Below the pieces are notes generated by a model that did no database searches, was not told the DNA's origin, and saw nothing but the letters and a program-made list of their open reading frames with translations. Shown here piece by piece: positions 8,793 to 49,735 of a stretch of 64,000 nt of DNA (position 1 is the first letter of the stretch; every line of letters begins with the position of its first letter). The position numbers were made by a program, and so were the translations under genes. Where the stretch lies: positions 1 through 64,000 of the IMG/VR virus record IMGVR_UViG_3300021197_001203; one strand, 5' to 3'. This DNA comes from a virus.

Positions 8793-9959
8793 TTAAGCAG
8801 ATAAATCTCTCACCTTACCGTGTGCGCCATAGAAGAGTTGCCAAAGGTTGCCCATAGTGTGGAACATTCCCATTTGTCCTAGTCTGTTGATTCCGAATGG
8901 ATCGCCAGTCTCTATACCGGATTCGTGGTATAATGTTGGTTTTGCAGTGCAAAAGTAAAGGTAGTCTGTATCTAAGTAATACATACGACTTAATCCACCG
9001 CTTTCTGAATGAACGTCTTTTGATGGAATTAGTGGGACTCCGTTGTATGTTGCTACAATGAAACCAGCTTCCATGCCCGGTACACCCTTAACGCCATTAA
9101 CGCCGGGTACAACTCTCTTCATCTCAGTAAATCTTTGCTGAGGTTGTAATAGTTGCTGAATCTTTTCTAATGTATCGTAGCCAGTAAGGATAACTTTAGG
9201 CTGTCCTCCACGTTCCCATACACTTCTGAACATTCCGTCCATGATGTTTAGAGACAATGCTCTCTCAGTACCTGAAGCACCTGCATCCACGTTTGCGTCA
9301 TACCATTGTGCAACGCTTCCTGCATTACGGTCAATGTTATATTGGTCGTGATCACCAGCAGCACTTACGTCACCAAAGCTAGTTGTTTCCACGAATGATG
9401 ATGATAGACAACGGTCAATTGACTCAAAGTCGTTTAGTGTTGTATCACGGAAATCAATGTCTTTTAGAAGCATTTTATTGATTGCCTCAGCGTGGTGCTT
9501 TGCCATTTCCATCTTCATGACAGCTCTAGCATCTCCAAGACCATCGTCTTTGTCAGCTAAGAACATTGCAGTTTCAGACAGATCGAATGTATGTGCGACT
9601 GTTCTTGGTTTGTCAGCTACGTGAGCAAAACTTGGTTTGCTTGTTTCAGGCAGTGTACCGTTCTCAGGAAGACCGCCACCAACATCGAATGAAGGTTTGT
9701 CAGTGACTACTCTCCAACCGGATTTTTCCCACGGTTTCTTAGGCAGTATAGAGAACGCATTGAACTCTTGGTTCAGCTGCGACCATACTTTACGACCAAA
9801 TATAGCTTGGTAAGTACCTGTGGTACTGCTCATTAGAGGCGAGTCAGCCTTCAGTAAGTCTGTACCGGAGTATGCCCATGCGTTAGCACCTGCACCAGCC
9901 CCGTAGTATAGACGTTCCATGTCTTCTATTGTTCTCAAATATCCTCTTGATCCACTCAT
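8793..9959 (-). CDS. Major capsid protein (HK97-fold candidate)
   Basis: 388 residues. It follows the prohead protease and shows features of HK97-type capsid proteins: an N-terminal helical region, an E-loop/P-domain-like stretch (WRVVTDKPSFDVGGGLPENG), a helical spine (AVMKMEMAKHHAEAINKMLL) and a C-terminal A-domain-like part (MYYLDTDYLYFCTAKPTLYH). The start at 9959 is preceded by GGAGATG. The protease-capsid-decoration order is canonical for tailed viruses. It is one of the few genes with its own TATA-like sequence upstream. The exact fold needs structure prediction, but the role is well supported by synteny. Confidence 0.85.
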   Translation of the reverse strand: MSGSRGYLRTIEDMERLYYGAGAGANAWAYSGTDLLKADSPLMSSTTGTYQAIFGRKVWSQLNQEFNAFSILPKKPWEKSGWRVVTDKPSFDVGGGLPENGTLPETSKPSFAHVADKPRTVAHTFDLSETAMFLADKDDGLGDARAVMKMEMAKHHAEAINKMLLKDIDFRDTTLNDFESIDRCLSSSFVETTSFGDVSAAGDHDQYNIDRNAGSVAQWYDANVDAGASGTERALSLNIMDGMFRSVWERGGQPKVILTGYDTLEKIQQLLQPQQRFTEMKRVVPGVNGVKGVPGMEAGFIVATYNGVPLIPSKDVHSESGGLSRMYYLDTDYLYFCTAKPTLYHESGIETGDPFGINRLGQMGMFHTMGNLWQLFYGAHGKVRDLSA

Positions 9960-9998: not shown

Positions 9999-11315
9999 TT
10001 ATTCTCCACGTATTGCTCTCCTTGCTAGGTCTTCAACAGCTCTCCAGCCGTCAATGTCACTACCCATTGCGTTAAACTCTTCATGTGTAGGGATTCGGAT
10101 GTCTGATGTTGTAGGTACTGCAACTGCTGATTTTTGTATATCTGCATTTACAGTTCTTAGTGATGCAATTTCTTGCTGTAATGCTGCGATCTGCCCGCTA
10201 TAATCAGATGCTTTTTGCATCTCCATAGCTCTAGCTGATTCAGCTTGATAACGCTCTTCCCATTGGGATTTTACGACTGACTTTAGATTTTCTTCATCAC
10301 GCATACCAGCGTATGCTCTATAACCACGCTCTAATCCTTCAGCGGTGACTTCATTTGATTCTTTGATTACGGACCTGTTGCCCTTTGGTGCCTCCATCTT
10401 CATCTTAGCTGGTGCCTTGATTACGTTTTTATTACCGCTAGCTGCTGGTAATGAAGGGTATGTAGGTTCAGAAGCATCTTCTCCGCTTCCAATCTCATCT
10501 CCCTGCCCTCGGTGTGAATAGCCCTGACCATCGCCCGGCAAATATGCCTTAGCTAATCCGAAGTGACCTCTTAATTTATCAAGATCAATTCCTTGTTCGT
10601 GAGCAAACTTCTCTAATGTGTCGATGTAAGCTACTGCTGTATCGTTAGATTTGTTCATCACTGGGGCTTCTGCTGGTTCTTCTTCGTCAATATGTTTTAG
10701 CACTCTTGCTAATCCATCTCGTATTTCACTTAGGGCTTCTGCATTATCTGTCATTTTTTCCACTTCCGGGTTTTCCATTTTTAATATAGTATAACGAGCT
10801 TCGGGGTTTATTCCTTTTTTACACAAAGTCACTTCATGCAATTCCAGCTCGGTAATCTCACGGTGGCTTCCATGCTCAGGCGTATGTTTACTAACCCTGA
10901 ACAAAGCTTGTCCACCAATAGAGAAGGCACGTAATTCATTATCTCTAATTTGCTTTTGTACCTCTCTAGCTTTCTGTATATCGCTGCGTATCTTACAAAC
11001 AACGAATAGGCCATGATCGTCAACTTCTGATTTCCATAATCGGCCATTTGAATCGGTGTGGTCTGCTACAACTTCTCCTACTTGTATTCCACTGTGCGCT
11101 AATTGCACATTTCTGAAAGCTTTGTTTTCCATGAAACTTCCAAATGCTTTCTTCAAAGCATCAGCAGGTATTCTATCTCCCTGCTTGTCCACCATGTCCA
11201 CACTAGCATATCCAGCTATGTATAAGTCATTACCAGCTTGAGACTTTAAGATAAAGTCTGACCCTACTGCACTCCACTTAAGGGAGGGTTGTATGGCTAA
11301 TGCGGCGGATGACAT
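9999..11315 (-). CDS. HK97-type prohead maturation protease with C-terminal scaffold-like region
   Basis: 438 residues from the ATG at 11315; a TTG lies six bases upstream. Residues about 25-175 match the U35/HK97 prohead protease pattern: IAGYASVDMVDKQGDRI, then QLAHSGIQVGEV with the candidate catalytic His, AFSIGG with the candidate Ser, and ELHEVTL. The remaining ~260 residues are helical and charged, with a coiled-coil ending (QMEKASDY-like, GQIAALQQEIASLRTV), as expected for a protease fused to a scaffold domain. It processes the capsid protein and possibly other head proteins inside the prohead. It is immediately upstream of the capsid gene. Confidence 0.85.
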   Translation of the reverse strand: MSSAALAIQPSLKWSAVGSDFILKSQAGNDLYIAGYASVDMVDKQGDRIPADALKKAFGSFMENKAFRNVQLAHSGIQVGEVVADHTDSNGRLWKSEVDDHGLFVVCKIRSDIQKAREVQKQIRDNELRAFSIGGQALFRVSKHTPEHGSHREITELELHEVTLCKKGINPEARYTILKMENPEVEKMTDNAEALSEIRDGLARVLKHIDEEEPAEAPVMNKSNDTAVAYIDTLEKFAHEQGIDLDKLRGHFGLAKAYLPGDGQGYSHRGQGDEIGSGEDASEPTYPSLPAASGNKNVIKAPAKMKMEAPKGNRSVIKESNEVTAEGLERGYRAYAGMRDEENLKSVVKSQWEERYQAESARAMEMQKASDYSGQIAALQQEIASLRTVNADIQKSAVAVPTTSDIRIPTHEEFNAMGSDIDGWRAVEDLARRAIRGE

Positions 11316-11378
11316 TAACAACTAATTATTTTACAATGGTATATGAATGAGATTGTGTTAAGGCTGACAACCCTAACA

Positions 11379-14300
11379 TCATACCGAATCAGTCCTAACG
11401 CTAGGCTGCGCCGCTGCATCAGCGATTTTTTCTTTTTTTTCTTTTTTTGGAAAACGCATCACTGCACCGTTTTCATCCATTTCTATTTTGGGCTTTTCTA
11501 ACTCGTCATCAGGGAATATATTTAGCATGGGTATATTGTGTTTTTCTTGGTCATCGTCCCTGCCCTCTTTTGGGTCTCCAAAAGTAGTATTTTCTTCGTC
11601 ATCAATAGTAGTAGCACCAGTGGGGGCGGTAATATCACCCTGCATACCTGACCACGCACCGCCATCACTGGATGCTCTATTCATTCTAGGAAAAGCAAAC
11701 TTCTCAATTGGAGTATCTGCAATATCGTCATCCACTGCTTGATTTACTGTCCATTTATTATCTTCAGTTCTTTCGATCCCATATTCATTTCCAAATCTCA
11801 ATAGGTGGTCTTCTTTGAGTCCATCTATTTTTTCTTCCAGCTGATCAGAGGTCAAAGAAATCTCTTCCTCAGTAATAACTTTAGATACGTGCCTCATCAT
11901 ATGTGCAATTTCGTCTTCTTCACCATTTGGTTCAAGGATAGCCGGGGCCTTTTGAATAATCTTCTTTTTCTTTTTACGGCGGGGATTAACAGAATGAATG
12001 GCCTGTAATGTCCCCTCGGTTGTCGAGGACACCATTCCCGTACCTTCGCCTCCACCACCTACTCCCGCAGCTGCACCTTCTTTCAAAACCAATGCGGCTG
12101 GGGCAGACCAAAGGTCAAATTGAGATTGAGCTTGTTTTACCAAATATGACAATCCTTCGTAAGATTCAACGAATATGCCGTTTTCATCAGTATTGGTCTT
12201 AACAATAACTGGCGAAACAATCTCAGGATATTCAAGTATAATATCAGTTCCTTTCACTAATAACTCAGGCAAAGGAGGATAAATCTTAGTTTTAGATATA
12301 TCATCATTAACGAATAATACCCATTTTGGATGTAATTCTTTATCTTTAATAAAAGTGGAATAAGAATCTCTAACTAAAAACTCGCCTTTATCAAAACCAG
12401 CTATTGATTTAACAAGTCCTTCATCATCTGAAAATACACAATTAGAAGGTGCTGGGAAATGAATATTGTCCGTTGAATGGTATAATGTGCGTAATACATT
12501 TATTCGGTCAGATAACGGTTCAAACGATAAATCGGAACCTTTGTGGACTAACAAATCAACAACTGATAATTTTTTATCATTCAAATAACCATCAATTGTG
12601 AAGTCTCCTTTCATACCTTTCAAGTCTTTTTGGATGTTGTTCGGTAGTCTTGGCTCTATTGATTTGCCTTTCTTTTCAATAAGCATACGACTCCCTAATG
12701 GTTTAGTTTGTATGACCCAATCTCCGCTAAACCCTTTTAATTCTGTAAGATCGTCAAAAGCTTTGACGGTATGTGCTGGTGAAATTAGATTTTTATTAAA
12801 GACACCTGTTGGCTCATAATCATCTGATTTATGCAAATCAGCAATTAAAGAAGGATAATTCTGATAATTAGACGTTAGTAGGTTAATATCCTTGTCTTTT
12901 GTCATTATAGTTTTCAAACTAAAAGCTGGGTCTAATTGTTTAACGTGTCCTTCATGTGCTGTTCTTTGAAGTATAATAAAAGGTTCTTCAGTTTGAGATA
13001 TTTCTATATCTAAAGTGTCAGGATTAAATGTCCATGCTATGTTTGTGGGCATAGGATGACCCCAAGCATCATTATTTCCTGTATTAAATATAGGGGCCAC
13101 TACCCCATGTGATTCAGGAGAAACCGCACCTAATGTTTCTTCAAAGCTTTCAAGCTGCCCTGATTCAAGATTAGGTAAAGCCATAGGAGAATGTCTAGCC
13201 ACATCGCCTTGACGCATCAAATTGTAATTTGCAGCTGCGAGGAATTGCTGAATATTGCCTCTAGCCAAAGTATTACCCTCAACGTCAGTGAATCCCGGCT
13301 CATCATCAATTGGTCCTGTAATAATTTCTGACCCTAATTCTTTCATCGCACGTTGCGATAGTCTCATCGCTTCTCTTGTTATCGCATTACTAGAAAGAAT
13401 TGAAAAACGATTATGTAATTGATGATATTTTTCATTTGAGTTAGGATGTTGTGAACCTAGAAATGGTGCCCCGTGTTCACCTATATTCATCATAGTCATA
13501 CCAAAGGGGCTTAACATATACGCATCGTGAGGTATTTCCATAATACTCCCCTGACCTTCAATTTCTGAGGGATGCAAATGATGATGATTAGAAGCTGAGG
13601 TCCATAAGGCCCTCTTTCTCTCAAAGTCTAAATCACCCTCTGAATGACTTGACAATATTGAAGATAATTCTCCGCTACCTAATTCGGTATTAGCAGACTT
13701 AGGAAAATGAGAACCTGCAATAGAATGTTTGCCGTCTAAAACCAACCCATCAAATAACAAACTTTCTAACCATGAGCCGTTAAAAACATTAGAATAAGAT
13801 TGATTAAATAATTGTCTCAATGAATTAAAATCCCTACCGACACCACCCCAATACTGAAAAGGTTCCCACCAATGATAATTGTGGCTTTGTGTAATACCTT
13901 CTTCAGTCATTACCCACGGTGAAGAATGATGTCTGTCAAATGATGCCTGATCGGGGTGGGGTCGAGTAGGGCCTGATTTGTCGGCTGGCCTAGCCCACCA
14001 AGCGGCCAACGGTGTAAATCTGTCCCTCCAATTTCGCAATGCTCTGTCCCAACTTAACCCGCCTTTTTCTTTTATTTGATTAGTAGCAAAGTCAACATCC
14101 GGTGAACCTTCTTCAGCATTAGACAATCTCCCTAACAAATCCATAAACTCGTCTCTTTGGGTAGTAGTCTGATATTCTAAACCAAATAAATAAGATAGAA
14201 GCCCATAGTCATAATTTAATTCTTCAGTTTTATTTTGGATATATTCTTCGTCTGAAAACTCACCATATCTGCCTCTATCAATATTATACAGGTCTAACAT

Positions 14301-14792
14301 TGTATCTGAGGGGTCTCCCATTACCAAGCGTTGTTCTTTCAAATCAACACGGATTCTTCTTTCAGCCTCTCTATGTGCATTCATCAATTCCCCTGTAAAC
14401 CTCATAACGTGTTTGGTATATTCGGGTTCACCGTGGGCCGCCCCATGCAATAGAGGACAACAATTTGATTGAGGGTGAAATGGATGATGCTCTCCAAAAC
14501 GATTGTCTTTTTCGGCTAACGGCCAGTCCCCCGCATAAGATGTTGAAACCTTAGTGTGCCCTGAAAGGAACTCACTCATTGATTCAGGAATTACCATTGT
14601 TGAAGGTTTCATTGGTTTGTCCAAATCTCTCATAGAATAAGGGGGCGGTGATGATGCAACGGCTAATGTAGCTGCATCCATGTTAGATTTAACAACTTGT
14701 AAATTAGACATATAATCTTCTAAAGCGGGTTTGCCACCTGTTAAAGAAGAAAGTAATACGTCAGTGCGTTGTCTTACAATTTCTTCCGTCAT
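11379..14792 (-). CDS. Very large virion-module protein with a degenerate ATP-dependent ligase-like domain
   Basis: 1,137 residues. The first ~600 have no recognised fold but are rich in His, Asn, Ser and Trp. Residues about 690-830 follow the order of ligase nucleotidyltransferase motifs: WVIQTKPLGSRMLI at the K-x-D-G-x-R position (Lys at about 697 kept, Asp replaced by Leu), DFTIDGYL at motif III, VVDLLVHKG, a PLSDRINVLRTL helix, then EFLVRDSYSTF and KWVLF at motifs IV and V. The altered motif I suggests loss of, or changed, nucleotidyl transfer. The C terminus has Gly-rich, KKKKK-containing and acidic segments. Its place between portal and protease genes suggests a virion protein. No family name can be assigned to the whole. 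Confidence 0.65.
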   Translation of the reverse strand: MTEEIVRQRTDVLLSSLTGGKPALEDYMSNLQVVKSNMDAATLAVASSPPPYSMRDLDKPMKPSTMVIPESMSEFLSGHTKVSTSYAGDWPLAEKDNRFGEHHPFHPQSNCCPLLHGAAHGEPEYTKHVMRFTGELMNAHREAERRIRVDLKEQRLVMGDPSDTMLDLYNIDRGRYGEFSDEEYIQNKTEELNYDYGLLSYLFGLEYQTTTQRDEFMDLLGRLSNAEEGSPDVDFATNQIKEKGGLSWDRALRNWRDRFTPLAAWWARPADKSGPTRPHPDQASFDRHHSSPWVMTEEGITQSHNYHWWEPFQYWGGVGRDFNSLRQLFNQSYSNVFNGSWLESLLFDGLVLDGKHSIAGSHFPKSANTELGSGELSSILSSHSEGDLDFERKRALWTSASNHHHLHPSEIEGQGSIMEIPHDAYMLSPFGMTMMNIGEHGAPFLGSQHPNSNEKYHQLHNRFSILSSNAITREAMRLSQRAMKELGSEIITGPIDDEPGFTDVEGNTLARGNIQQFLAAANYNLMRQGDVARHSPMALPNLESGQLESFEETLGAVSPESHGVVAPIFNTGNNDAWGHPMPTNIAWTFNPDTLDIEISQTEEPFIILQRTAHEGHVKQLDPAFSLKTIMTKDKDINLLTSNYQNYPSLIADLHKSDDYEPTGVFNKNLISPAHTVKAFDDLTELKGFSGDWVIQTKPLGSRMLIEKKGKSIEPRLPNNIQKDLKGMKGDFTIDGYLNDKKLSVVDLLVHKGSDLSFEPLSDRINVLRTLYHSTDNIHFPAPSNCVFSDDEGLVKSIAGFDKGEFLVRDSYSTFIKDKELHPKWVLFVNDDISKTKIYPPLPELLVKGTDIILEYPEIVSPVIVKTNTDENGIFVESYEGLSYLVKQAQSQFDLWSAPAALVLKEGAAAGVGGGGEGTGMVSSTTEGTLQAIHSVNPRRKKKKKIIQKAPAILEPNGEEDEIAHMMRHVSKVITEEEISLTSDQLEEKIDGLKEDHLLRFGNEYGIERTEDNKWTVNQAVDDDIADTPIEKFAFPRMNRASSDGGAWSGMQGDITAPTGATTIDDEENTTFGDPKEGRDDDQEKHNIPMLNIFPDDELEKPKIEMDENGAVMRFPKKEKKEKIADAAAQPSVRTDSV

Positions 14793-16921: not shown

Positions 16922-18715
16922 TCAAGACTTGTCCTCTTCTTTGCCTCTTTGACCATCAATATTTAATCTTTTTAATTTTGCATTGGCTCTTTTTAATGCA
17001 GGGGGGTCATCAGTATTTTTATTGCCTTTAGATGATATTGGTGAGCCTTCGTTATGAATTACTCTATCACCTGCATTGCCCTTTACCGAAGACCGTGTTT
17101 GGGATATTCCCCCTTCTCTAGCTGGGCGTATATCAGTACCTCTTGTTGTGACAGCAGCAGCAGCATCAGGGACACTGCCGTGAATAGGGTCATTAACATC
17201 TCTTTTGAATAATCCAAAAGCACCCATATCCTGCTTTTGCACTCCAGCACCCCCGCCAGCAGCTTGTTGTTCGGCCATCGCAGCCTCCTGTGCTGCCACT
17301 TCTTCGGGGTCCGGTTCCGCATAATCGAAAGTCAAATATGCGTCATCAACTGTGTCCCTCAATTTAGCATCAAATCCTGCTTGCTTCATTTGCATCATAT
17401 TGCGGATAGCCATCTCATCTCGGCGTAATTGCATTATCTCATCCTCTTCTTCGTGAGGCGTTAATGTTATTTCCCATTCAGTTATACCGAATGCTTCTAA
17501 CAATGCAGGGAATAAAAGACGGTTGTATATTGATTGTGAAAAGGACACTGATCGGTTGCTGACAACAATTTGCATACCTTCGTTATTTAATCCGCCTCCG
17601 GTCACATCATTCATAAATACATTAGATACACCATAAAAGGCGGATATACGTTGTCTGATGTCATCTTTAATTGGTATGTATTGTAGCTCTTCTAATGTGT
17701 CCATCATACGAACATACTCTATTCCTCCCCTACCTGATTCCGTCTCAACACCTATGGTTGGCACATAGTTAGGGTCACGTTCAAGATGTTCTTGGATATT
17801 CCTTGCTGTTCTCTCAACAGTTTCCATGTTTGATGATTTAATGACCATAATACCTCTTGGCATTCTTCTCTTTTGATATGCGGAATAGACATAGTTATCC
17901 ATAGCAATCAATGTATTGACTTGTCTCCACATAGTAGCAACTGGACTACGCCCATACAATTTTGAAGGGGACCATTTACTAAGATGAATAATTTCACCTT
18001 CAGTATAACATTGCCCGTTGCCCACTCCAGCTAAGTTCATGTAATGTATTGGCACTACATTCATACCAGTAGTTGGACATTTATCATTAGGGTCCGAAGT
18101 GCGGAACGACCTGTCAACAAGGCTGGTGTATTGATTACCCCCTCTTACCCCTCTTTTATCGGACAAAATACGCATAAATATAGGGTCTGCTCTCGATATT
18201 TCCTTAATCCTAAAAAACGTGGCCGCCTTTGTTTTAGGGTCAATAAAATATTCCTTTGTCACTACGAGATAGGCATCATCGACAATATTCAAATCCATTT
18301 CTAATTCTCTTAAAACATCAATAAACGTCTGCCCCATTTCATTCGTACTCCTGAATACCATGTCTGCATATTCTATTTGTGAACGGTCAGCTTTTCTCAT
18401 TTCGCCCCCCGTTTCAGGGTCGCTTTCATATTGTTGTCCGAACTCTTGATCAGTGTCTATACTTTTTACAACAAACTTTGGTTTCCATGCCCAGCCTTTA
18501 CGAAATGTTTCAACACATAAATGATTCAATATTGACCTTAAAACCATGCACTCGTAAGATGCTGCATACAAAGCAGGGATAGTAATACCCTGAAGTAAGG
18601 CAGGTTCTTGAATACCTGATGTAAATAAGGGCATTGAGGGTTTAGGACTAGAATGCCTCTCCATGTCCATTCCCACTGCTGAGAATAATCGTTCCATTCT
18701 TTTTTTATCGACCAT
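16922..18715 (-). CDS. Portal protein
   Basis: 597 residues, usual length for portals of tailed viruses. The early part (ALYAASYECMVLRSILNHLC then FRKGWAWKP) matches the start of phage portal proteins, where a conserved helix precedes an aromatic R-x-G-W-x-W strand. The middle has the helical wing/stem region (DNYVYSAYQKRRMPRGIMVI, DDIRQRISAFYGVSNVFMND). The last ~120 residues are low complexity (Ala/Gln/Gly then Lys-rich) and probably disordered. The gene lies directly after TerL and one intermediate gene, as expected for the packaging ring at the capsid vertex. Confidence 0.88.
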   Translation of the reverse strand: MVDKKRMERLFSAVGMDMERHSSPKPSMPLFTSGIQEPALLQGITIPALYAASYECMVLRSILNHLCVETFRKGWAWKPKFVVKSIDTDQEFGQQYESDPETGGEMRKADRSQIEYADMVFRSTNEMGQTFIDVLRELEMDLNIVDDAYLVVTKEYFIDPKTKAATFFRIKEISRADPIFMRILSDKRGVRGGNQYTSLVDRSFRTSDPNDKCPTTGMNVVPIHYMNLAGVGNGQCYTEGEIIHLSKWSPSKLYGRSPVATMWRQVNTLIAMDNYVYSAYQKRRMPRGIMVIKSSNMETVERTARNIQEHLERDPNYVPTIGVETESGRGGIEYVRMMDTLEELQYIPIKDDIRQRISAFYGVSNVFMNDVTGGGLNNEGMQIVVSNRSVSFSQSIYNRLLFPALLEAFGITEWEITLTPHEEEDEIMQLRRDEMAIRNMMQMKQAGFDAKLRDTVDDAYLTFDYAEPDPEEVAAQEAAMAEQQAAGGGAGVQKQDMGAFGLFKRDVNDPIHGSVPDAAAAVTTRGTDIRPAREGGISQTRSSVKGNAGDRVIHNEGSPISSKGNKNTDDPPALKRANAKLKRLNIDGQRGKEEDKS

Positions 18716-20015
18716 TCATCAACACCTTTTCTTTCATCTTATCAAATCTTTCAATAGAAACATTCTTGCTTTTTAGAAATGTGACTTGTTCCTTCCTATT
18801 TAATGAATCATGAACCATAACAATCAAAGCGTCTTTATCACCAACAAGTGCTTTAGATAACATAAATGCCTCATGCGAAGAGTCCGTGATGTATGGTGAA
18901 GCCATCTCAACTGCCTTAATAACTCCTTTCTCTCCTTCAATACATAAACCCGAAGACGTTGATTTTACACAATTCATATCCATTTCGTTATTCAACGCAT
19001 CGGCATACCACGGCGCAGTAGGGGCATTAAACCTCATTTCAATACGTGGTTTCATCCTACTATCAAACCTTACCGAAGAATTAGTTTCGATCAGGCCAGC
19101 TAAGAACCTGCCCGCATCTTTTAGAATAACATCTCTTCGTTTTATATCATAGAACAATCCTCTTCCTAAAGTTTTACTAACCTCTCCCACTGATATAATG
19201 TCATAGAGAAAACCATGCGATTTAATCAAGGAGGATATTTCTCCTGTGCTGGCTGAGACACCATTTATTTTCAAAGTCTGAGCATTCAAAGCCCCTTTCT
19301 TGAACAAGTGTCCAGCACATTCACTTAATATTGTCCTCTCTCTAGGAGATAATCTTAGATTTGCATCTATTACTGATTTCCATGCTGTGTATGATTCCTG
19401 CTTTGCTAGAGAGTCATCAGCAGCCTCCCAAACCTTTACAAATCTTCTAAACGGTATTCCCAACCTGTTTGAATATTTATTCAAGCTATCGTAATCAACA
19501 TCAGTCAAAGGTAAATGTTTTACAAGTTCAGGTGAAACTCCGGGGAATGAGGATAGAATCGCTTTCTTTTCAGCAATCAACAAAGGGTATAATGCGTCTA
19601 ATGCTTTGAGTTCATTGGATTTGATAAATATTGAAGCCATTTCAGAACCTGTCATTCCAAAATTATCCACGAACCAAGTTCTGTTTATGTCTATATCTGA
19701 TCTTAGAAAACCATCTTCAGACGGTGCTGTCAGGTCTCCGTCCATCTCCGGCGCACTCGTATGAGAACTGTCCATTCCTTCAATGTCGGCCCCTTGACCT
19801 TCTTCAGTCTTTGGTTTCTTCATAGCTTGAGCATCTGTTTTTTGGGCCTCCGCTAATTCCGCCTGAGCTTGTGTCACCTTATTCATCGCCATTTCAGTTA
19901 GCTTACCGCCTACAACCCCTGCTGCTGCTGTTCCAGCGGCTGCTAACATTGGATTTTTTCTTATCGAATCAGCAAGCGTTTCCACGCCAATTTGGGTTTC
20001 TAAGTATTTACGCAT
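18705..20015 (-). CDS. Unknown protein between terminase and portal
   Basis: 436 residues. Residues about 20-45 are small and hydrophobic (MLAAAGTAAAGVVGGKLTEM), which could be a membrane or peptide-like segment, followed by an Ala/Gln helix and an acidic linker. The rest is a globular domain with DSSHEAFMLSKALVGDKDAL near the C terminus. It overlaps TerL by eight bases and the portal by eleven, so it is tightly coupled to packaging genes. No family recognised. It may be a portal-associated or ejected protein. Confidence 0.6.
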   Translation of the reverse strand: MRKYLETQIGVETLADSIRKNPMLAAAGTAAAGVVGGKLTEMAMNKVTQAQAELAEAQKTDAQAMKKPKTEEGQGADIEGMDSSHTSAPEMDGDLTAPSEDGFLRSDIDINRTWFVDNFGMTGSEMASIFIKSNELKALDALYPLLIAEKKAILSSFPGVSPELVKHLPLTDVDYDSLNKYSNRLGIPFRRFVKVWEAADDSLAKQESYTAWKSVIDANLRLSPRERTILSECAGHLFKKGALNAQTLKINGVSASTGEISSLIKSHGFLYDIISVGEVSKTLGRGLFYDIKRRDVILKDAGRFLAGLIETNSSVRFDSRMKPRIEMRFNAPTAPWYADALNNEMDMNCVKSTSSGLCIEGEKGVIKAVEMASPYITDSSHEAFMLSKALVGDKDALIVMVHDSLNRKEQVTFLKSKNVSIERFDKMKEKVLMNGR

Positions 20016-21378
20016 CCATCCACCCTAATCTCTTCTGCCATGTGGGACCATCTAATATCATAATATTTTCACGATATTCCTTTGTAGCTTGAACCGCCAA
20101 ACCCAAAGCTAAAACCATATCGTCATGAGAACCTAAACTCTCCATGCGACCATTTTCTAACATAGTAAAATTAGACAACTCAGTGAGTAGTGCGTTCATA
20201 TGCCTTCTTGTCCCTTCATGATTCTTGTAAGGTATAATCAGGTGTTGCTGTTCAAAATGAAGTTGTAAGGTGTGCATTATAGCCTCTTTTTTCATACGAG
20301 ACATATTGAATGGTTTAATGGGTAAATCGCTTATTTCTTTTAGCACCTGATTAAATGCCATAGCAAAATTGTTTGTCTCCAATTCAATTATAACAGGGTT
20401 AAATCTAGCATTCAATTCAATTATTTTATCTATCTGATGACTAAAGTCCATACCTTTTTCGTGATGAACATGAATTATTCTCTTATGTCTATTTTCATCC
20501 ATTCCTATAACCATCATACAAGTGTAATCAGCAGATCGGTTAGCACTAATCGCCGGGTCCCAACCAATGTAATAATTTAGCTCTTCTTCAGATTCAGGAT
20601 AATATGACAAAGCTAAACTTTGGTCCTTTACACGTTCAAGCATATCTTCAGGAAAAAGACTGGCTTCACTGGCGATTGGTTTACACAGGTACTCACGGGT
20701 AAATGCTATTGAAGTCATTTCCCCCCTTCTAGCATTCAAAGCTTCAAGAGACCATCTTTCAGGCCACAAGGGGTCTCCTGTTGCTTCATTAATCGCAGGG
20801 TACTCTCCAACGACATAACCGTCCAAAGCCTTCAATTCAGAATACAAATCAGTAAATGAAAACGGAGTCCCGACTATACATAATCTAGCTGTATGGTGAA
20901 GAACTGGTAGTAATGCGGTATAAAACCAAGTCGATATTGCTTTCAGCTGCGTTTGCGCTTCACTTGACAATATGTCATCTAAAACCACTATGTCAGGGTG
21001 CGCCCCTCTCACTGCTTTGCCGACTGACATAGCACGTATGGAGGATTTATTTGTCATCTTGAACAATTGCTTTGCCCATCCTCTTTTGGGTTTTAGATGC
21101 TGTAATGCGGGGGTTGTTTCTATTAATTCATTCATTTTACCCATGTGGTCAATGGACTGATGCTGACTGTGGCTGAAAAATAAAACTTCTGTATTTGGCC
21201 TGTAAGCCATTTTCCATAAAAGATAACATCTGAAAAATACTGATTTACCATGATCACGACTGGCTATTACACAAGTTTTAGTGTGGCCTTCTGACATCTC
21301 ATACCATTCTTTATGAAAATCCGCCAATTGAAAACCGCAAATATCTTCAAAAAAGAATCTGAAATCTTTACGCCCCAT
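20008..21378 (-). CDS. terL: Terminase large subunit
   Basis: 456 residues with both terminase domains. ATPase: Walker A SRDHGKS at residues 40-46, Walker B DIVVLDD at about 129-135, coupling region CIVGTPFSF. Nuclease: YYIGWDPAISANRSADYT near residue 270 gives the first acidic residue, and VIIELETNNFAMAF and SHDDMVLALGLAV supply later ones. It packages viral DNA through the portal and cuts the concatemer. The ATG at 21378 leaves a 37-base gap to the previous gene; the frame stays open upstream without another ATG. Its neighbours are portal and head genes, as expected. Confidence 0.95.
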   Translation of the reverse strand: MGRKDFRFFFEDICGFQLADFHKEWYEMSEGHTKTCVIASRDHGKSVFFRCYLLWKMAYRPNTEVLFFSHSQHQSIDHMGKMNELIETTPALQHLKPKRGWAKQLFKMTNKSSIRAMSVGKAVRGAHPDIVVLDDILSSEAQTQLKAISTWFYTALLPVLHHTARLCIVGTPFSFTDLYSELKALDGYVVGEYPAINEATGDPLWPERWSLEALNARRGEMTSIAFTREYLCKPIASEASLFPEDMLERVKDQSLALSYYPESEEELNYYIGWDPAISANRSADYTCMMVIGMDENRHKRIIHVHHEKGMDFSHQIDKIIELNARFNPVIIELETNNFAMAFNQVLKEISDLPIKPFNMSRMKKEAIMHTLQLHFEQQHLIIPYKNHEGTRRHMNALLTELSNFTMLENGRMESLGSHDDMVLALGLAVQATKEYRENIMILDGPTWQKRLGWMDA

Positions 21379-32751: not shown

Positions 32752-35067
32752 TTAAGCGATTTTTCTGCCGCTTTGCGATTCTCGGATAGAGTTTTGTTGT
32801 ATTACTCGGAATATGTCATCTAATGCTTGACCATGTTCCATGTAAGATGTGTTTTCGTTTTCTCTTCTGAAACACATCCGGCATCCCATTTCACCAGTCA
32901 TTGGGTCAATATTCATGTCGCATTTTGTATCTGCACCGGGGAGTGATGCCGGACAAACCTGCTGCCGACTATTACCGCCAAAACCTTTCGGTGTTATCGT
33001 GCTTGTTGTAATTCCGGGGGATTCTAAAATCGAAGCGATGTCACCAACCCTGTCATTTCGTCCTTCTTTGCCCTTATACCACTCAGGTTCCTTGTCAATA
33101 GAAATCCTCATTGTTGCATTATCGGGCAAATGAGACTCTTGTGTCCCCCCTCTAGCCTCCATAGCCTCTCTTATGTATTGAGCTTGGCGTGAAGAAATCC
33201 AATGTTCTAAGTCTCGTAATTCTCTTGGGGTTTGTTGTTGTAGGAGATCGAAATAAGCTGAAACTTCACCGGGGCCTCTAAAATCTCCTGAAGCCTTTCC
33301 TCTAACATAACCCTTACCTGCAAGGTGTTTAGGCGCATTTCTTTTATTATTTGCGGTTTTCATCGCTTCAGAATACATTTCATTTTGCATGGCTGAAAGA
33401 TATTTAGGCATATCATTAAGAGAATTGTATAGATTACGGTGATATTTTCTTTGTGGGCCATTAAACGCCATTTTATTTTGAGCAGCATAACATATTTTAC
33501 AGGCCCCAGTTTTCATCGTACAAGCATGAACGGGCATATCCCCCAATGATATTCCGGGCATTTTACCGGGATTACCAAAGCCAGCCATTAACTTCGATTG
33601 TTTGTCGCTGCCCTCCCATGTTGGTATTTCCATCCCTTCTAAGGGATAATCCACTAGATTAGGGTTATCTTTGGGACCAGTGAGCTGTTGAACCTTTTCG
33701 GGGTATAGATTTATGAAATCAATTATATCTCTATTACCCCCCCCATACATCTGACCTTCAGGGCGTGGTGGGCCGTAATTTCCTTTTTTGTCTTTATTCC
33801 ACGGATATGGCACCGCATCCGGCAACTTACCACCGAACAGCTCTTCCCAAAAGAACATTTCACCGGGTTGCCCCCAGTGTTCTGAATCAAATACTGCTTT
33901 AACCAGCCCCCACGCATCTTCAAAGGTATTGTCTTCTGATAGATTAATGATCTGACCGAGCATTGCATTTTCTAATACGTCTCGGCCTGTATTGGTAAAA
34001 TCGCTTTCTCTAGCTAGAATACCATGAGTTGGGGTCACAAGACCCCGTTTCAAACCGAGTTTATCAGGATTGCTGCCTATATTCATAGGCACAGGAACTC
34101 CCTGATGCTTGAAACCTGATGAATCTCTATATGACGGCATTCTCCCTAACTCGTCTAATATTCTCATTATAGGGTCTATTGAGCCTGTCACTTTACTACT
34201 GTAAGGGACACCATCAGTGTGAACATCTGTATCTAAAGAACCAATACGATCACGCCAGTCATAATCATCAACATCTTCTCTATATTCCCTGTTATCAACA
34301 GAATATTTACCTTCTTTTGGGGTCAAATTGGGGTTTTTTGGTGTTGAGAAATCATAACCCACCATTATTAGAGGTCTGCCCGTTTCTTTATCCCAGCCCT
34401 GCATCGCCCCTTTCTTATCCCTGAAAAGGTCAACATCGTCCCCCCAATCTTGTAGCAACCGGGATTGGTCTAAACCTTCACCCAAAATATCAGATAATTC
34501 CCCGCGGCCTAGATTGCCGTGAACCCACATATGTTCATTTTTCTTACCATCGGCTTTTCTTTGACCATCAATTCTATGAGACCTAGACTGTGCGCCTCTC
34601 GATACATTAAATCTAGGGTCGTCTAAAGGGGTAGCATTAGAAGCCGCTAATGTTGTAAAACGCCCTTGTTTTTGAGGGTCTTCATCAAACCTTCTTTGTA
34701 ATGAGTGCATACCGCCTAAAGCTGGAAAATATTCACCACCAATTAAAGTAGGTGACGGAAGCGTATTACGTCCCGTAAATTGATTATTCCTAAACAAACG
34801 AGTGTTGTAGTCCCCAAAACGGTCTTTAGCAAACCGTGGTATAGCTAATCTGTCTCTCAATAATCGGCTCATACTCCTATGCGACCTTTTATCATCTAAT
34901 AAAGGATAAATAACTTCTCTAAGTGGATTTATTGTTGATTCTATACGGTCCACTGGGGTACGCTGCTGCCCCATTAACGCCCTAGTATTGAACCCATCAA
35001 TTGTAGCCCCGTCAAAGTCTAATGCAGTTTTCCAGCTCTTTTCAAAGAGACTGTCGTCACTGCCCAT
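32752..35067 (-). CDS. Gp88-like protein carrying two copies of the tag (fusion)
   Basis: 771 residues from the ATG at 35067; an ATG at 35088 is alternative. The N terminus MGSDDSLFEKSWKTALDF is a diverged tag, and a second, better copy DNTFEDAWGLVKAVFDSE occurs near residue 385. The C-terminal ~280 residues match the Gp88 type of phage protein: SLGDMPVHACTMKTGACKIC then YAAQNKMAF, GDFRGPGEVSAYFDLL, ATMRISIDKE, a second Cys set (VCPASLPGADTKCD) and GCRMCF. The N-terminal half is polar and unrecognised. The two tags suggest fusion of two once-separate tagged genes. The biochemical role of Gp88 proteins is not known to me. Confidence 0.7.
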   Translation of the reverse strand: MGSDDSLFEKSWKTALDFDGATIDGFNTRALMGQQRTPVDRIESTINPLREVIYPLLDDKRSHRSMSRLLRDRLAIPRFAKDRFGDYNTRLFRNNQFTGRNTLPSPTLIGGEYFPALGGMHSLQRRFDEDPQKQGRFTTLAASNATPLDDPRFNVSRGAQSRSHRIDGQRKADGKKNEHMWVHGNLGRGELSDILGEGLDQSRLLQDWGDDVDLFRDKKGAMQGWDKETGRPLIMVGYDFSTPKNPNLTPKEGKYSVDNREYREDVDDYDWRDRIGSLDTDVHTDGVPYSSKVTGSIDPIMRILDELGRMPSYRDSSGFKHQGVPVPMNIGSNPDKLGLKRGLVTPTHGILARESDFTNTGRDVLENAMLGQIINLSEDNTFEDAWGLVKAVFDSEHWGQPGEMFFWEELFGGKLPDAVPYPWNKDKKGNYGPPRPEGQMYGGGNRDIIDFINLYPEKVQQLTGPKDNPNLVDYPLEGMEIPTWEGSDKQSKLMAGFGNPGKMPGISLGDMPVHACTMKTGACKICYAAQNKMAFNGPQRKYHRNLYNSLNDMPKYLSAMQNEMYSEAMKTANNKRNAPKHLAGKGYVRGKASGDFRGPGEVSAYFDLLQQQTPRELRDLEHWISSRQAQYIREAMEARGGTQESHLPDNATMRISIDKEPEWYKGKEGRNDRVGDIASILESPGITTSTITPKGFGGNSRQQVCPASLPGADTKCDMNIDPMTGEMGCRMCFRRENENTSYMEHGQALDDIFRVIQQNSIRESQSGRKIA

Positions 35068-35322
35068 AGTGATACTAGGGCATACCATTCATCAAAAGTC
35101 TGCCGGACATTTATAGACGATTGCAGAACATAATATTCTTTGCAGGGGGGGCTATTCATTTGTCTCGTCCCATTTTTTTGACACACCCCTATTGGTAGGC
35201 TGCAACCTAAACCAACCCCCCCCTGCACCTTCTAGTGCAGTTTGTTGATTTCATCAGCAATTTTTCCCAAAATATCAAAAACCTTCAAGGGAACGTACAA
35301 CACAAACAAGAAGGTGCCCACT
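35068..35322. promoter_or_regulatory. Divergent intergenic region between minus-strand gene at 35067 and plus-strand genes
   Basis: No convincing gene. Contains C/G homopolymer patches (near 35145 and 35220) and AT-rich sequence near 35265-35280 (CCCAAAATATC), where a plus-strand TATA-like element could drive the genes at 35323 and 35447. The two transcription units diverge from here, so promoters are expected on both strands. Confidence 0.4.
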
Positions 35323-46018: not shown

Positions 46019-49000
46019 ATGAGTATGACAGAAATAATGAATGTAATGAGAATGATACTAGGCAGTCTATTGCCTAGCGTATTCGGCCAAAAGGCTGGAT
46101 TAGAGATGACTGTAATGAGTGAGGCTAGAATCGGTGAAGCTGCCGATCAATTATACCACACCGATTTAGTGCTAATACAACAAGAACTACGCACATTATC
46201 GCACGTTGTTATCACCAATGAGTGGACTGGTGAACACCCAAAGAGAACCGATATGACACATGGTCTTGAAGCACAAATGAAAGTGGACAGATTAATCAAA
46301 GCGTCAGCAACACTAGAGACATACGCAAATGGCTGTGAATGTATCGAATGTAAGTTTGTAGTAGCAAAGGAGATGCCTAGCCTAAAGAATGTAGTATTAG
46401 GGACACCAGTGTCCTCATTCACATGGACAGGGACAGGTATGGTCGAAGAGGCCATTACACCTGACCCAGCACTAGAATTAGATGTGCCTATTACAGAAGA
46501 TGAAATTAGGTATCACATGAAGAAGTGGAACGGTGTAATACGGTCAACCTTCGTATGGCAACACAAAATGAATGCTGCTGAATTGATCGAAGATTTGCGT
46601 AAAGCGTCTTATCCTGCGGCTGGATATGAACCGACCTATGTTGGTGGTGGCAGTGATGCAGAACACGATTGGGTTGAGGCTAACTATAATTTCGATTCAG
46701 AATATGATAGAGAAAAGAATCGAATGAATGCTTCAATGGTAGTAGTGAATGAGGCTAGAACTGCAAATGGGTATAACCTCGATAGGGATAGGACAATACA
46801 CGATGTTCAGCCAGTAGTTAAGTCAATGAAAGAAGTGGAGGGCTGGACACAAGAGATGCTCTATATTATTATCCGTGATAGCACAAACGCATCTGATCGA
46901 GTGGAGGCGGCTGAAATGCTTGTTGAGCTAAAACAGAAGCAATTACACAGCTATCTGAAAGACAACCTAAAACCATCTGTCTTTAGAGCCGTGGATTTTG
47001 TTATTGGTTGTATGCCTAGCGACCTAGATTTGAACACGACAGTGGTGCAGGAATCCCGTGTTAATGATGAAGAACTTAGAGGCTTTCAAGACTATCGCAT
47101 GGGTGCAACACATCAGGCTACTGATGGTCTATACTATGAGACACCATTAGATGAATGCCTGTGGCAGATTCTTGACCGAGAAGATGTGGAGGCTAATTGT
47201 GGCTTAGAAGAGGGTGAAATAACCGAAGCGGCTTGGAAACAATTTCTTGCGTTGCATAAGGATGCCTTCGCTAGTGCGGTTTGTGCGTTGGCTTCGGAAT
47301 ATTACAATGATTATCATACACCAAAAGATGACTTGAGCGATACAGTAGTGCAGGAATCAAGAACTAGAATGTCATATATGTTCAAAGAAGGAGATGAATA
47401 TCCAGTCTCAGTGGCAAATAAATCTCAAGCTCACAAAATGCTTGTTCATATGATTGCTCATGCTTCGGGGGACGGCACACCTATTGCTATCGTTGTGGCC
47501 AACACATATGCAGATGAAGCCTTCGACATACCTATGGAAACTCCACATTCAGGAGATGAGTTATTGCATGGGACATATCAAGCAGTCAAAGAAGTTAGAG
47601 ACGGACAGAGCGTTCATGTTCAATTAAGTCGAGACGATGAAAGATTCGATCACACGACAGTAAAAACTAGCCATGTATGGGACAGGAGGACTTTGACTAA
47701 TTCAGACATTAACAGACTTAGAGAGCAATGGAATAGAGAGTTAGATGGTTTAGATTCAGACTCAAGATTCTTTCCTTATTCGATAACTGGTGCGAGGGCT
47801 GCTTCTAGCTTAATTGGCCAGCTTCTGACTAAAGCAGAAGATGATGATTATGGCGGTTCAGTAATGGTCAATGTTCTATGTGCCGAATACAAAGCAGAAC
47901 AGGTGTTGCGTGTGTATAATTTGAAAGATGAGTTTGGCGATCAGATTATGTCTCAAGCGGCTGGGTATAATCTCCCAATGACCGATGTAAGTCTGTTAGA
48001 GATGAGTCATTCAGTACCACTCATTGGTTATCGTGAGGCTAAAAATACCTTTATTTCATTAGATGGAGGTCGCTGGAGTCTTTCATGGGCTATTACTGGT
48101 AGTTATGATGATATGACTAATGAGTCGCCTAGAATAGAGATTAGCAACCATTACGTTATTGACAAATCAATTAGAGATTTGTGCGACCACATATTAACAC
48201 GAAAAGACAGTGGTCGCTTACTAACCACAGGACAGGTAAAGTCTGATGTGTTAGTCAAAGCCACAAGTAAAGAAAACACATATCTTGTTTCAGACCACCA
48301 GTTAAAGATAGTCAAGAAGGATTTGGCTGACCTTCGATCAGCCGCACAGCTCTCGCTAGATGACACAGTAGTCCATGAGGTTAGATTGGACATACCTGAT
48401 GAGCATTGGGACACACTGATGGAGACATTACTACTAGATACTGAAACAATGGCAATAGAGCCGTCTGAGAGGGACAGAATACGTGAGGCTTTGGATAGTG
48501 TCGAGACAGTCAATCCTTTCTTTGATAGAGGTCAATTGCATTGTGGATTTGATGTTCTTAAGAATCCACTTTACAGAATATCTCTTGCTGATGCGATTAA
48601 TGTATGTAAAGCAGGAGGATTAGTGTGGTTGGCTAATGAATCTCAAGATAACTATGGAGGGGAGGACAGCAGACACTATTCATACCCCGTTGAGAACCAT
48701 GAAGACCTATATGATTATGAAGATAGTGAAGAATTATTGATCGTATTAGAACCAATGTTTTACAATAAGCATGGTAATTTACTGGAGGGACATATACTAC
48801 CTAATTCTAAAGATGGTGTATGGAAGGTGTCATTGACTCTAGCTAGAGATGCGAGACATAGATTAGCTGATGAAACACACTTCGATGAAGAGCATATTGA
48901 AGGCGAAATTAAGTCATGGTTAGAGGACATAGACTACCGTGTCCTTGAGTGCGACATTATAGATGTATCAAACATCCCTAATGCTAACGATGGGGTCTAT

Positions 49001-49735
49001 GACTTAGGTGATGCTGTAAAGAATCAATTAATGGCTGTCGAGACAGAAGAAGAGGTCAAAGAAATAGCGATTCTTTATCAGACCCGTCAAGCATGGTTGG
49101 ATGGTTTCAGACACAAGAATGAGGAAGGTGAATATGAATTGCTTGAGCCTAGCACCAAAGAACAAATTGACGCTTTGTATGTCCCATTACCTAATTCAGT
49201 CGTTCTTGATGTGATAGAGCAATTACAACCAGTATGGGGTTATCATTGGTCAAAGGTAGTAGGCAATCTTGATACTGTGTCTGATCAGATATTTCACATA
49301 ATGAACCACGACAATAGGAATCCATTGTCAGTCAGTTTCCATAAGCATGGTATAGACGGAGATAGAACCATGCAGAATTGGATGGGGGACAACGGACTGG
49401 GACATACATCAATGAGTATGAATGACGTGATAGCCTACCGACTTACAGACGGCTGGGTGTATCACAGTTGCAGAGCTTTAGGATGGGCGTGGTTGCCTGT
49501 TATTCATCAGGCTCAAGGGGCAGAGAATATGACTCGCTTTGAAAAGGTAAAAGCAATGATTAATCTTGATACAAACAGGATTCCGCTTCAAGAGGGAGAA
49601 TTAGAATTGATTGAGGCTATGGTTAATGGTTTTAACCATCCCCGTATCAATGACTCATGGGGGGAACTCAATGAAGATGGAATGTTTTGGGCTACAAAAG
49701 CCATGGAAACTCTGAGTCATGAGGTGATCGAATGA
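46019..49735 (+). CDS. Very large unknown protein with recurring TVVxExR motif
   Basis: 1,238 residues, first gene of the rightward arm. No recognised catalytic motif. A short pattern recurs at about residues 30, 240, 341, 441 and 781: VMSEAR, VVNEAR, TVVQESR, TVVQESR and TVVHEVR, in the last three preceded by an acidic D-L-x-x-T stretch. This divides the chain into segments, as in a multi-module or processed protein. A C-terminal segment (VKAMINLDTNRI at about 1177) is shared with the protein at 58693. It overlaps the helicase gene by four bases, suggesting a common function in replication or early host takeover. Confidence 0.65.
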   Translation: MSMTEIMNVMRMILGSLLPSVFGQKAGLEMTVMSEARIGEAADQLYHTDLVLIQQELRTLSHVVITNEWTGEHPKRTDMTHGLEAQMKVDRLIKASATLETYANGCECIECKFVVAKEMPSLKNVVLGTPVSSFTWTGTGMVEEAITPDPALELDVPITEDEIRYHMKKWNGVIRSTFVWQHKMNAAELIEDLRKASYPAAGYEPTYVGGGSDAEHDWVEANYNFDSEYDREKNRMNASMVVVNEARTANGYNLDRDRTIHDVQPVVKSMKEVEGWTQEMLYIIIRDSTNASDRVEAAEMLVELKQKQLHSYLKDNLKPSVFRAVDFVIGCMPSDLDLNTTVVQESRVNDEELRGFQDYRMGATHQATDGLYYETPLDECLWQILDREDVEANCGLEEGEITEAAWKQFLALHKDAFASAVCALASEYYNDYHTPKDDLSDTVVQESRTRMSYMFKEGDEYPVSVANKSQAHKMLVHMIAHASGDGTPIAIVVANTYADEAFDIPMETPHSGDELLHGTYQAVKEVRDGQSVHVQLSRDDERFDHTTVKTSHVWDRRTLTNSDINRLREQWNRELDGLDSDSRFFPYSITGARAASSLIGQLLTKAEDDDYGGSVMVNVLCAEYKAEQVLRVYNLKDEFGDQIMSQAAGYNLPMTDVSLLEMSHSVPLIGYREAKNTFISLDGGRWSLSWAITGSYDDMTNESPRIEISNHYVIDKSIRDLCDHILTRKDSGRLLTTGQVKSDVLVKATSKENTYLVSDHQLKIVKKDLADLRSAAQLSLDDTVVHEVRLDIPDEHWDTLMETLLLDTETMAIEPSERDRIREALDSVETVNPFFDRGQLHCGFDVLKNPLYRISLADAINVCKAGGLVWLANESQDNYGGEDSRHYSYPVENHEDLYDYEDSEELLIVLEPMFYNKHGNLLEGHILPNSKDGVWKVSLTLARDARHRLADETHFDEEHIEGEIKSWLEDIDYRVLECDIIDVSNIPNANDGVYDLGDAVKNQLMAVETEEEVKEIAILYQTRQAWLDGFRHKNEEGEYELLEPSTKEQIDALYVPLPNSVVLDVIEQLQPVWGYHWSKVVGNLDTVSDQIFHIMNHDNRNPLSVSFHKHGIDGDRTMQNWMGDNGLGHTSMSMNDVIAYRLTDGWVYHSCRALGWAWLPVIHQAQGAENMTRFEKVKAMINLDTNRIPLQEGELELIEAMVNGFNHPRINDSWGELNEDGMFWATKAMETLSHEVIE
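49543..49581 (+). repeat. 39-bp near-identical repeat, copy 1
   Basis: The 39 bases coding KVKAMINLDTNRI match 59292-59330 with two differences by eye. Both copies are in the same frame of two different proteins. See copy 2. Confidence 0.75.

Follow-up and report, generated by a model that had tools for sequence, protein, structure and literature searches.

We report that P0001, a head-module protein encoded on the minus strand at positions 11379–14792 of a 64,000-nucleotide stretch of viral DNA (positions 1 to 64,000 of the 108,315-bp IMG/VR record IMGVR_UViG_3300021197_001203; the whole stretch is referred to below as the window), contains a domain that is almost certainly a pseudo-ligase of ligase descent. 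The domain occupies approximately residues 658–836 of the 1137-amino-acid protein (12285–12821, on the minus strand like all parts of P0001 cited below). It shares with the adenylation domain of ATP-dependent DNA ligases (PF01068; human LIG1 and the archaeal ligases) the fold, the scaffold residues and the order of motifs I, III, IIIa, IV and V, but has lost the motif I aspartate, the motif III glutamate, the motif IV lysine and the motif V lysines, and is embedded in a much larger protein. Its ancestor was in all likelihood a head-module ligase of a sister family that occupies the same gene slot in related viruses. The window itself most likely comes from a magrovirus of the group that has thermosomes. 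The fold, the homology, the residue loss, the conserved gene slot and the purifying selection are directly supported by the present analysis.

Fold and active site of the domain

Searches with the P0001 sequence by itself produced no Pfam match at E ≤ 10 and none in PHROGs or NCBIfam, and PDB sequence searches returned no DNA ligase. PF01068 (DNA_ligase_A_M) is matched weakly by 19 of 28 aligned homologues, with a best E-value of 6.4e-4. An AlphaFold model of residues 640–905 (mean predicted local distance difference test score, pLDDT, 74.8) has DNA ligases as its structural matches among those listed; the VIA-align superposition on human LIG1 has a Z-score of 14.6 and a root-mean-square deviation of 3.1 over 161 residues, that on the Sulfolobus solfataricus ligase a Z-score of 13.9, and the best Foldseek match of the modelled domain is the archaeal ligase 3rr5 (E 1.3e-6). 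When the whole protein was modelled, the alignment with LIG1 (Z 15.3) ran from residue 656 or 660 to residue 836, which, along with the hhalign comparison to the intact family described below, gives the domain its boundaries. VIA-align and Foldseek thus agree on the nucleotidyltransferase fold of the DNA ligase adenylation domain. An initial annotation, made from the sequence, had proposed a degenerate ATP-dependent ligase-like domain with the ligase motif order, a proposal to be abandoned if the predicted fold turned out to be unrelated to nucleotidyltransferases. That outcome did not occur, and the PF01068 matches of the homologues, the modelled fold and the hhalign comparison all bear the proposal out.

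The catalytic residues of the covalent nucleotidyltransferase superfamily are well established, and their fate was followed across 70 distinct degenerate domains aligned with 14 domains of intact head-module ligases and five canonical ligases. The strings quoted in the initial annotation were all located in P0001: KPLGSR at residues 697–702, DFTIDGYL at 730–737, PLSDRI at 759–764 and EFLVRDSY at 804–811. At the position of motif I, K697-P-L-G-S-R702 (12687–12704) keeps the lysine and the glycine and has leucine for aspartate; the aspartate is present in none of the 70 degenerate domains, and the lysine in 49 of them, being replaced by methionine in 19 and valine in two. At motif III (DFTIDGYL, 12582–12605) the aspartate is kept and the glutamate has become Tyr736, a substitution found in 57 domains, the others having valine (10) or phenylalanine (3), so that no glutamate is left. 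The motif IIIa region, VVDLLVHKGSDLSFEPLSDRINVL (12492–12563), retains Asp746 and Arg763. The motif IV lysine is Arg808 in P0001 (EFLVRDSY, 12360–12383) and arginine in 70 of 70 domains, and at motif V (HPKWVLFV, 12309–12332) Trp824 is kept and the two following lysines are gone, the first of the K-x-K pair surviving in a single domain and the last in none. Five positions, namely the motif I glycine, the motif III aspartate, the motif IIIa aspartate and arginine and the motif V tryptophan, are invariant among the 70. In the 14 intact and five canonical domains the lysine and aspartate of motif I, the motif III glutamate, the motif IV lysine and both motif V lysines are always kept. Seven rows lacking the search signature do not enter these counts; by eye, the three degenerate ones (L095, L113, L114) show the motif I change from lysine to methionine and the four intact ones (L126, L128, L155, L156) read EKYDG, so that both groups fit at motif I. 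The degenerate family therefore departs from the pattern of an active ligase at motif I (K-x-D-G), motif III (Glu), motif IV (Lys) and motif V (K-x-K). As for motif VI and the OB fold, no Pfam family was found in P0001 at E ≤ 10, the OB fold not having been searched separately. The segment that separates motif V from the region of C-terminal similarity is shorter in the degenerate than in the intact family.

The median ratio of nonsynonymous to synonymous substitution rates (dN/dS) is 0.045 for the domain, 0.081 for the N-terminal part and 0.121 for the C-terminal part, over 25 randomly sampled pairs that are not independent of one another, a contig being repeated in some. Judged by these sequence comparisons, strong purifying selection acts on the domain, whose fold is kept though catalysis appears lost. 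Of the two possibilities raised initially, that of an enzymatic fold recruited as a virion structural part has stood up in so far as such a fold is kept under selection within a head-module protein; that of an unusual nucleotidyltransferase finds no support, because the motif I aspartate, the motif III glutamate and the lysines of motifs IV and V have disappeared throughout the family.

The gene slot and its intact occupants

The plus strand between 11379 and 14792 is full of stop codons, and the minus strand is a single open frame of 1137 codons with IMG/VR homologues (best-segment identity 35–61%); the coordinates first given for the gene are thus correct, with the reading direction 14792 to 11379. 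Its placement in a head module is also confirmed by the neighbouring genes. The cluster, read in the direction of the minus strand, consists of the terminase large subunit (TerL, phrog_38; 20008–21378), a 436-amino-acid gene, the portal protein (phrog_18178; 16922–18715), small genes, P0001, the prohead protease as the next gene downstream (Peptidase_S78, phrog_23555; 9999–11321) and the SU10-type major capsid protein (MCP; SU10_MCP, phrog_24667; 8793–9959), the TerL, portal, protease and MCP being named from profile or PHROG matches. Relatives of P0001 were gathered as 12 close loci, 35 loci in a search with an alignment, and 299 stretches in a search with the domain alignment, the best 80 of which were kept. 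Of 119 degenerate loci, 14 have no room for a downstream gene; among the other 105, the prohead protease comes next on the coding strand in 104, and one locus is arranged differently.

The same slot before the protease and the MCP is held in other viruses by a ligase family with intact motifs (loci L042, L123–L139, L155, L156, L158 and L173–L252). One member, the 842-amino-acid protein L042, is encoded on a contig of a bacterial metagenome-assembled genome (MAG) labelled Maricaulis; it combines intact motifs with a signature, LKGF[ST]G, shared with the degenerate family, and its neighbours match phrog_38, phrog_18178, phrog_23555 and phrog_24667, the PHROGs of the window's own TerL, portal, protease and MCP. 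Four head-module-ligase contigs (L042, L155, L156 and L158) in fact occur in this bacterial MAG (G025, labelled Maricaulis sp. IN14) and are probably mis-binned virus contigs. The family was extended by 17 viral loci; its ligase matches PF01068 at E 7.9e-32, and one member (L138) matches phrog_114. In a wider scan, at least 540 of 600 candidate IMG/VR stretches encode relatives, which indicates that a head-module ligase has been overlooked. Among the best 80 of the 540 stretches, to which the following motif and slot counts apply, motifs I (EK[YF]DG-x-R), IV (EGV-x-[IL]K) and V (W[IV]K-x-K) are present in 80 of 80, and, where there is room, 62 of 64 have the protease downstream and 53 of 55 the MCP; of the 27 intact loci collected earlier, all 19 with room have the protease downstream and eight lack the room. 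Such locus counts are not counts of independent viruses, because some loci repeat contigs (L043–L122 partly repeat those of L002–L036, and L143–L147 and L151 repeat intact loci); the motif counts, for their part, were based on distinct domain sequences.

The degenerate domain is specifically related to this head-module ligase, insofar as sequence profiles can tell: hhalign aligns the two over 181 columns with an E-value of 1.4e-16, as against 3.8e-4 for the canonical ligases, and a hidden Markov model (HMM) of the degenerate family retrieves intact head-module ligases and skips the canonical viral ligases (L140–L142) at a threshold of 1e-4. The LKGF[ST]G signature, found in most intact members, is followed by WVVQ in both families. 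Outside the shared domain the proteins diverge. The intact ligases, with motifs such as EKYDGIR, DAE, EGVVIKD and WIKFK, have a different N-terminal region of about 230 residues, compared with 640 in P0001, and, relative to P0001, some 100 additional residues past motif V, at the expected place of an OB fold. The C-terminal part of P0001 (residues 841–1137, 11382–12272) is collinear with, and weakly similar to, the C-terminal end of the intact proteins, with E 0.0023 at best in hmmsearch and E 0.012 (probability 3.5%) in hhalign.

PolB, TFIIB zinc ribbon, RFC and ERCC4 domains in one 96-kb intact-type record (43 of 59 listed frames scanned) indicate an archaeal virus. This record and another of about 96 kb encode, in addition to the head-module ligase, a separate canonical ligase of 516–520 amino acids, which sits away from the head module (L153, 10349–11902; L140). 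A chaperonin gene is absent from the four intact-type records tested, whereas the record of the window has a thermosome.

Possible functions and competing explanations

The retained fold, the lost catalytic residues and the intact ligase in the same slot of related viruses give P0001 the appearance of a former enzyme that has become a non-catalytic component. On the whole we favour, with some reserve, the explanation that its domain is a pseudo-ligase derived from a head-module ligase and now serves as a DNA-gripping or scaffolding part in head assembly, packaging or ejection. Under this scenario, the ancestor was an active ATP-dependent ligase of the kind found in the head module of related marine archaeal-type viruses, and it would have worked at the portal vertex or within the procapsid, either closing nicks in the DNA before they could stall packaging or repairing the genome as it entered. 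In the magrovirus lineage the catalytic residues would have been lost and the fold retained, the domain persisting as a non-catalytic DNA-gripping or scaffolding element joined to a different N-terminal region of some 640 residues, with a part to play in head assembly, packaging or ejection. A role of P0001 in the virion or procapsid is reasonably probable; that the domain grips DNA is a more tentative suggestion. The constant position between portal and protease, together with the second, canonical ligase of two intact-type genomes, suggests that the head-module ligase has a task of its own, and a plausible one would be to seal nicks as DNA passes into or out of the head. For the T4 packaging motor, one study reports that translocation of short DNA is blocked by nicks (PMC3012670). 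A bolder proposal, to which we lend less than even credence, is that a large group of ocean archaeal viruses carries a dedicated ligase in or on the capsid, apart from the replication ligase, which would seal nicks during packaging or delivery of the genome, and that the magrovirus version is a dead DNA clamp still essential to the particle. If true, uncultured viruses of abundant marine archaea would possess both a ligase borne in the virion and a pseudoenzyme descended from it. P0001 in any event offers a testable case of the conversion of an enzyme into a structural part, with the intact version available for comparison in the same slot of related viruses.

An ATP-dependent DNA ligase figures among the replication genes of these viruses in the ICTV (International Committee on Taxonomy of Viruses) text on Aoguangviridae (PMC10768690) and likewise in that on Apasviridae (PMC12999244); Xu et al. 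have a DNA ligase encoded by almost all viral operational taxonomic units (PMC10160649), and a published magrovirus annotation gives the name 'ATP-dependent DNA ligase' to a gene adjoining the prohead protease (PMC7318539). In 24 magrovirus-type records, the window's own among them, the curated cut-off of PF01068 is nowhere reached, and the 18 sub-threshold matches, in 14 records, all fall in frames of 1104–1173 amino acids, similar in length to P0001. A canonical-ligase profile, which did detect ligases in the two 96-kb intact-type records, found none in 15 magrovirus-type records except for one weak match in a P0001-type gene, and profiles for NAD-dependent ligase and RNA ligase families matched 0 of 9 records each. 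Since the DNA_pol_B profile matched just two of those nine records, although magroviruses are described as having PolB, and since many records are fragments, absence by profile counts for little, and a very diverged real ligase could likewise escape. Given that the PF01068 matches occur only in P0001-length frames and that canonical ligases were not found, the ligase published for magroviruses is probably, to some extent at least, the pseudo-ligase gene described here. A 'replication ligase' that is partly a dead head-gene domain would alter the claim of a replication that depends little on host factors. The initial annotation had expected a recruited enzymatic fold to be new; the gene had in fact already been annotated as a ligase beside the prohead protease, and what seems novel is the catalytic breakage and the intact sister in the slot, our literature searches, which left subscription papers mostly uncovered, having found no paper on either.

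These published annotations imply an active, highly diverged DNA ligase, a reading with which the lack of any other ligase in the 15 records would agree; it is nevertheless very improbable, with the catalytic positions gone family-wide and the PF01068 cut-off unattained in all 24 records. Even less credible is a convergent or chance resemblance, for which one might invoke the failure of P0001 alone to match Pfam, NCBIfam or, in PDB sequence searches, a DNA ligase: the fold, the motif order, the LKGF[ST]G/WVVQ signature and the syntenic intact homologues concur, and this explanation was rejected. The pocket might still bind nucleotide, either as a sensor or for nucleotide transfer through substituted residues, as the frequent motif I lysine, the universal motif I glycine, the invariant arginine in place of the motif IV lysine and the strong purifying selection could be taken to imply. 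The methionine or valine that replaces the motif I lysine in 21 of 70 domains and the almost complete loss of the motif III glutamate and the motif V lysines make this rather improbable.

More serious, though still unlikely in our estimate, is the alternative that P0001 works in the cytoplasm as an accessory to packaging or replication, binding nicks or DNA ends, and never becomes part of the particle even though its gene lies in the head cluster. A catalysis-free ligase fold could still bind nicked DNA, and the virion placement of P0001 is itself something that we infer. T4 RNA ligase 1 (gp63), also a protein of the covalent nucleotidyltransferase superfamily, is relevant to both this alternative and our own view. 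According to PMC3004832, gp63 has a second role in virion assembly, promoting tail-fibre attachment, and, unlike fibritin, is not a component of the particle. It thus provides an earlier example of a ligase that takes part in assembly but differs from P0001 in being an active enzyme, in acting on tail fibres and in lying outside a head module. What speaks against a cytoplasmic accessory is the portal–protease slot, constant across the degenerate and intact families as expected of head proteins, and the separate canonical ligase, presumably replicative, of two intact-type genomes.

Several observations weigh against the derivation of the pseudo-ligase from a head-module ligase, and against the role in the head that we favour for it, or limit their reach. 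No counterpart of the N-terminal 640 residues was detected in intact-type loci and the C-terminal similarity is weak, so that the case for common descent extends to a domain in one slot and not to the whole gene. An unrooted tree, for which 10 of 17 candidate canonical loci were used (L161, L163, L167, L168, L170, L171 and L172, without a motif I match, were omitted), separates degenerate, intact and canonical domains into three clean groups; this is compatible with the kinship to the head-module ligase, yet the tree cannot tell which two are sisters, because each group makes up one side of a branch. A ligase domain could have entered this slot on two separate occasions. The second canonical ligase is present in two of four intact-type records, and the other two, which are shorter (66 and 81 kb), have the head-module ligase alone. 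The motif I lysine persists in the window's own copy as it does in 49 of the 70 domains. Finally, the place of P0001 in the virion is proposed from gene position, and its DNA binding is likewise a deduction.

Virus identity and further features of the window

The assignment to a thermosome-group magrovirus draws on the size of the record, on a thermosome (archaeal group II chaperonin) gene at 56384–58018 on the plus strand (NF041082, 527.8 bits, above cut-off) and on a full-length P0001 homologue, 46% identical, on the 106-kb magrovirus-type contig L041 (CACGHY010000002.1) of the uncultured Poseidoniales assembly AG-422-I20. Published profiles give magrovirus genomes as 90–110 kb (PMC12999244), and another source places thermosomes in one clade of Marine Group II (MGII) viruses (PMC5332604). 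The record thus combines the Magrovirales traits of a tailed-virus head module, a size of 90–110 kb, a chaperonin and a link to Poseidoniales. The occurrence of the L041 contig in an assembly of a Poseidoniales isolate (AG-422-I20) is also a direct host lead.

The N-terminal part of P0001 (residues 1–640, 12873–14792) is mostly helical up to about residue 530 in the whole-protein model, with good pLDDT over most of residues 1–530. This well-predicted helical portion (13203–14792) has conserved stretches such as NYHWWEPFQYWGGVGR and the HHH-rich NHHHLHP. No known relative was found for residues 1–640; the structure search used the whole model, and its matches all came from the ligase domain.

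A 1314-amino-acid 'zeta toxin' protein of the halovirus HVTV-1 (KC117377; L040, 18622–22563) is encoded shortly before the prohead protease, in the same slot as P0001, and large proteins with enzyme-domain annotations may therefore be usual there. It differs from P0001 in its kinase-type annotation, and its similarity to the profiles A2 and A3 is not significant; these profiles yielded nothing significant against bases 1–50,000 of HGTV-1 and 1–100,000 of HVTV-1. A tblastn search with P0001 in 'phages' gave no match, near-identical records possibly being excluded from that set.

Elsewhere in the window, the opposite-strand module starts with a 1238-amino-acid protein (46019–49735, plus strand) for which Pfam and NCBIfam gave no match, and a 778-amino-acid protein on the late-gene strand (32752–35088, minus strand) contains a GP88 domain (PF17338, E 1.2e-9).

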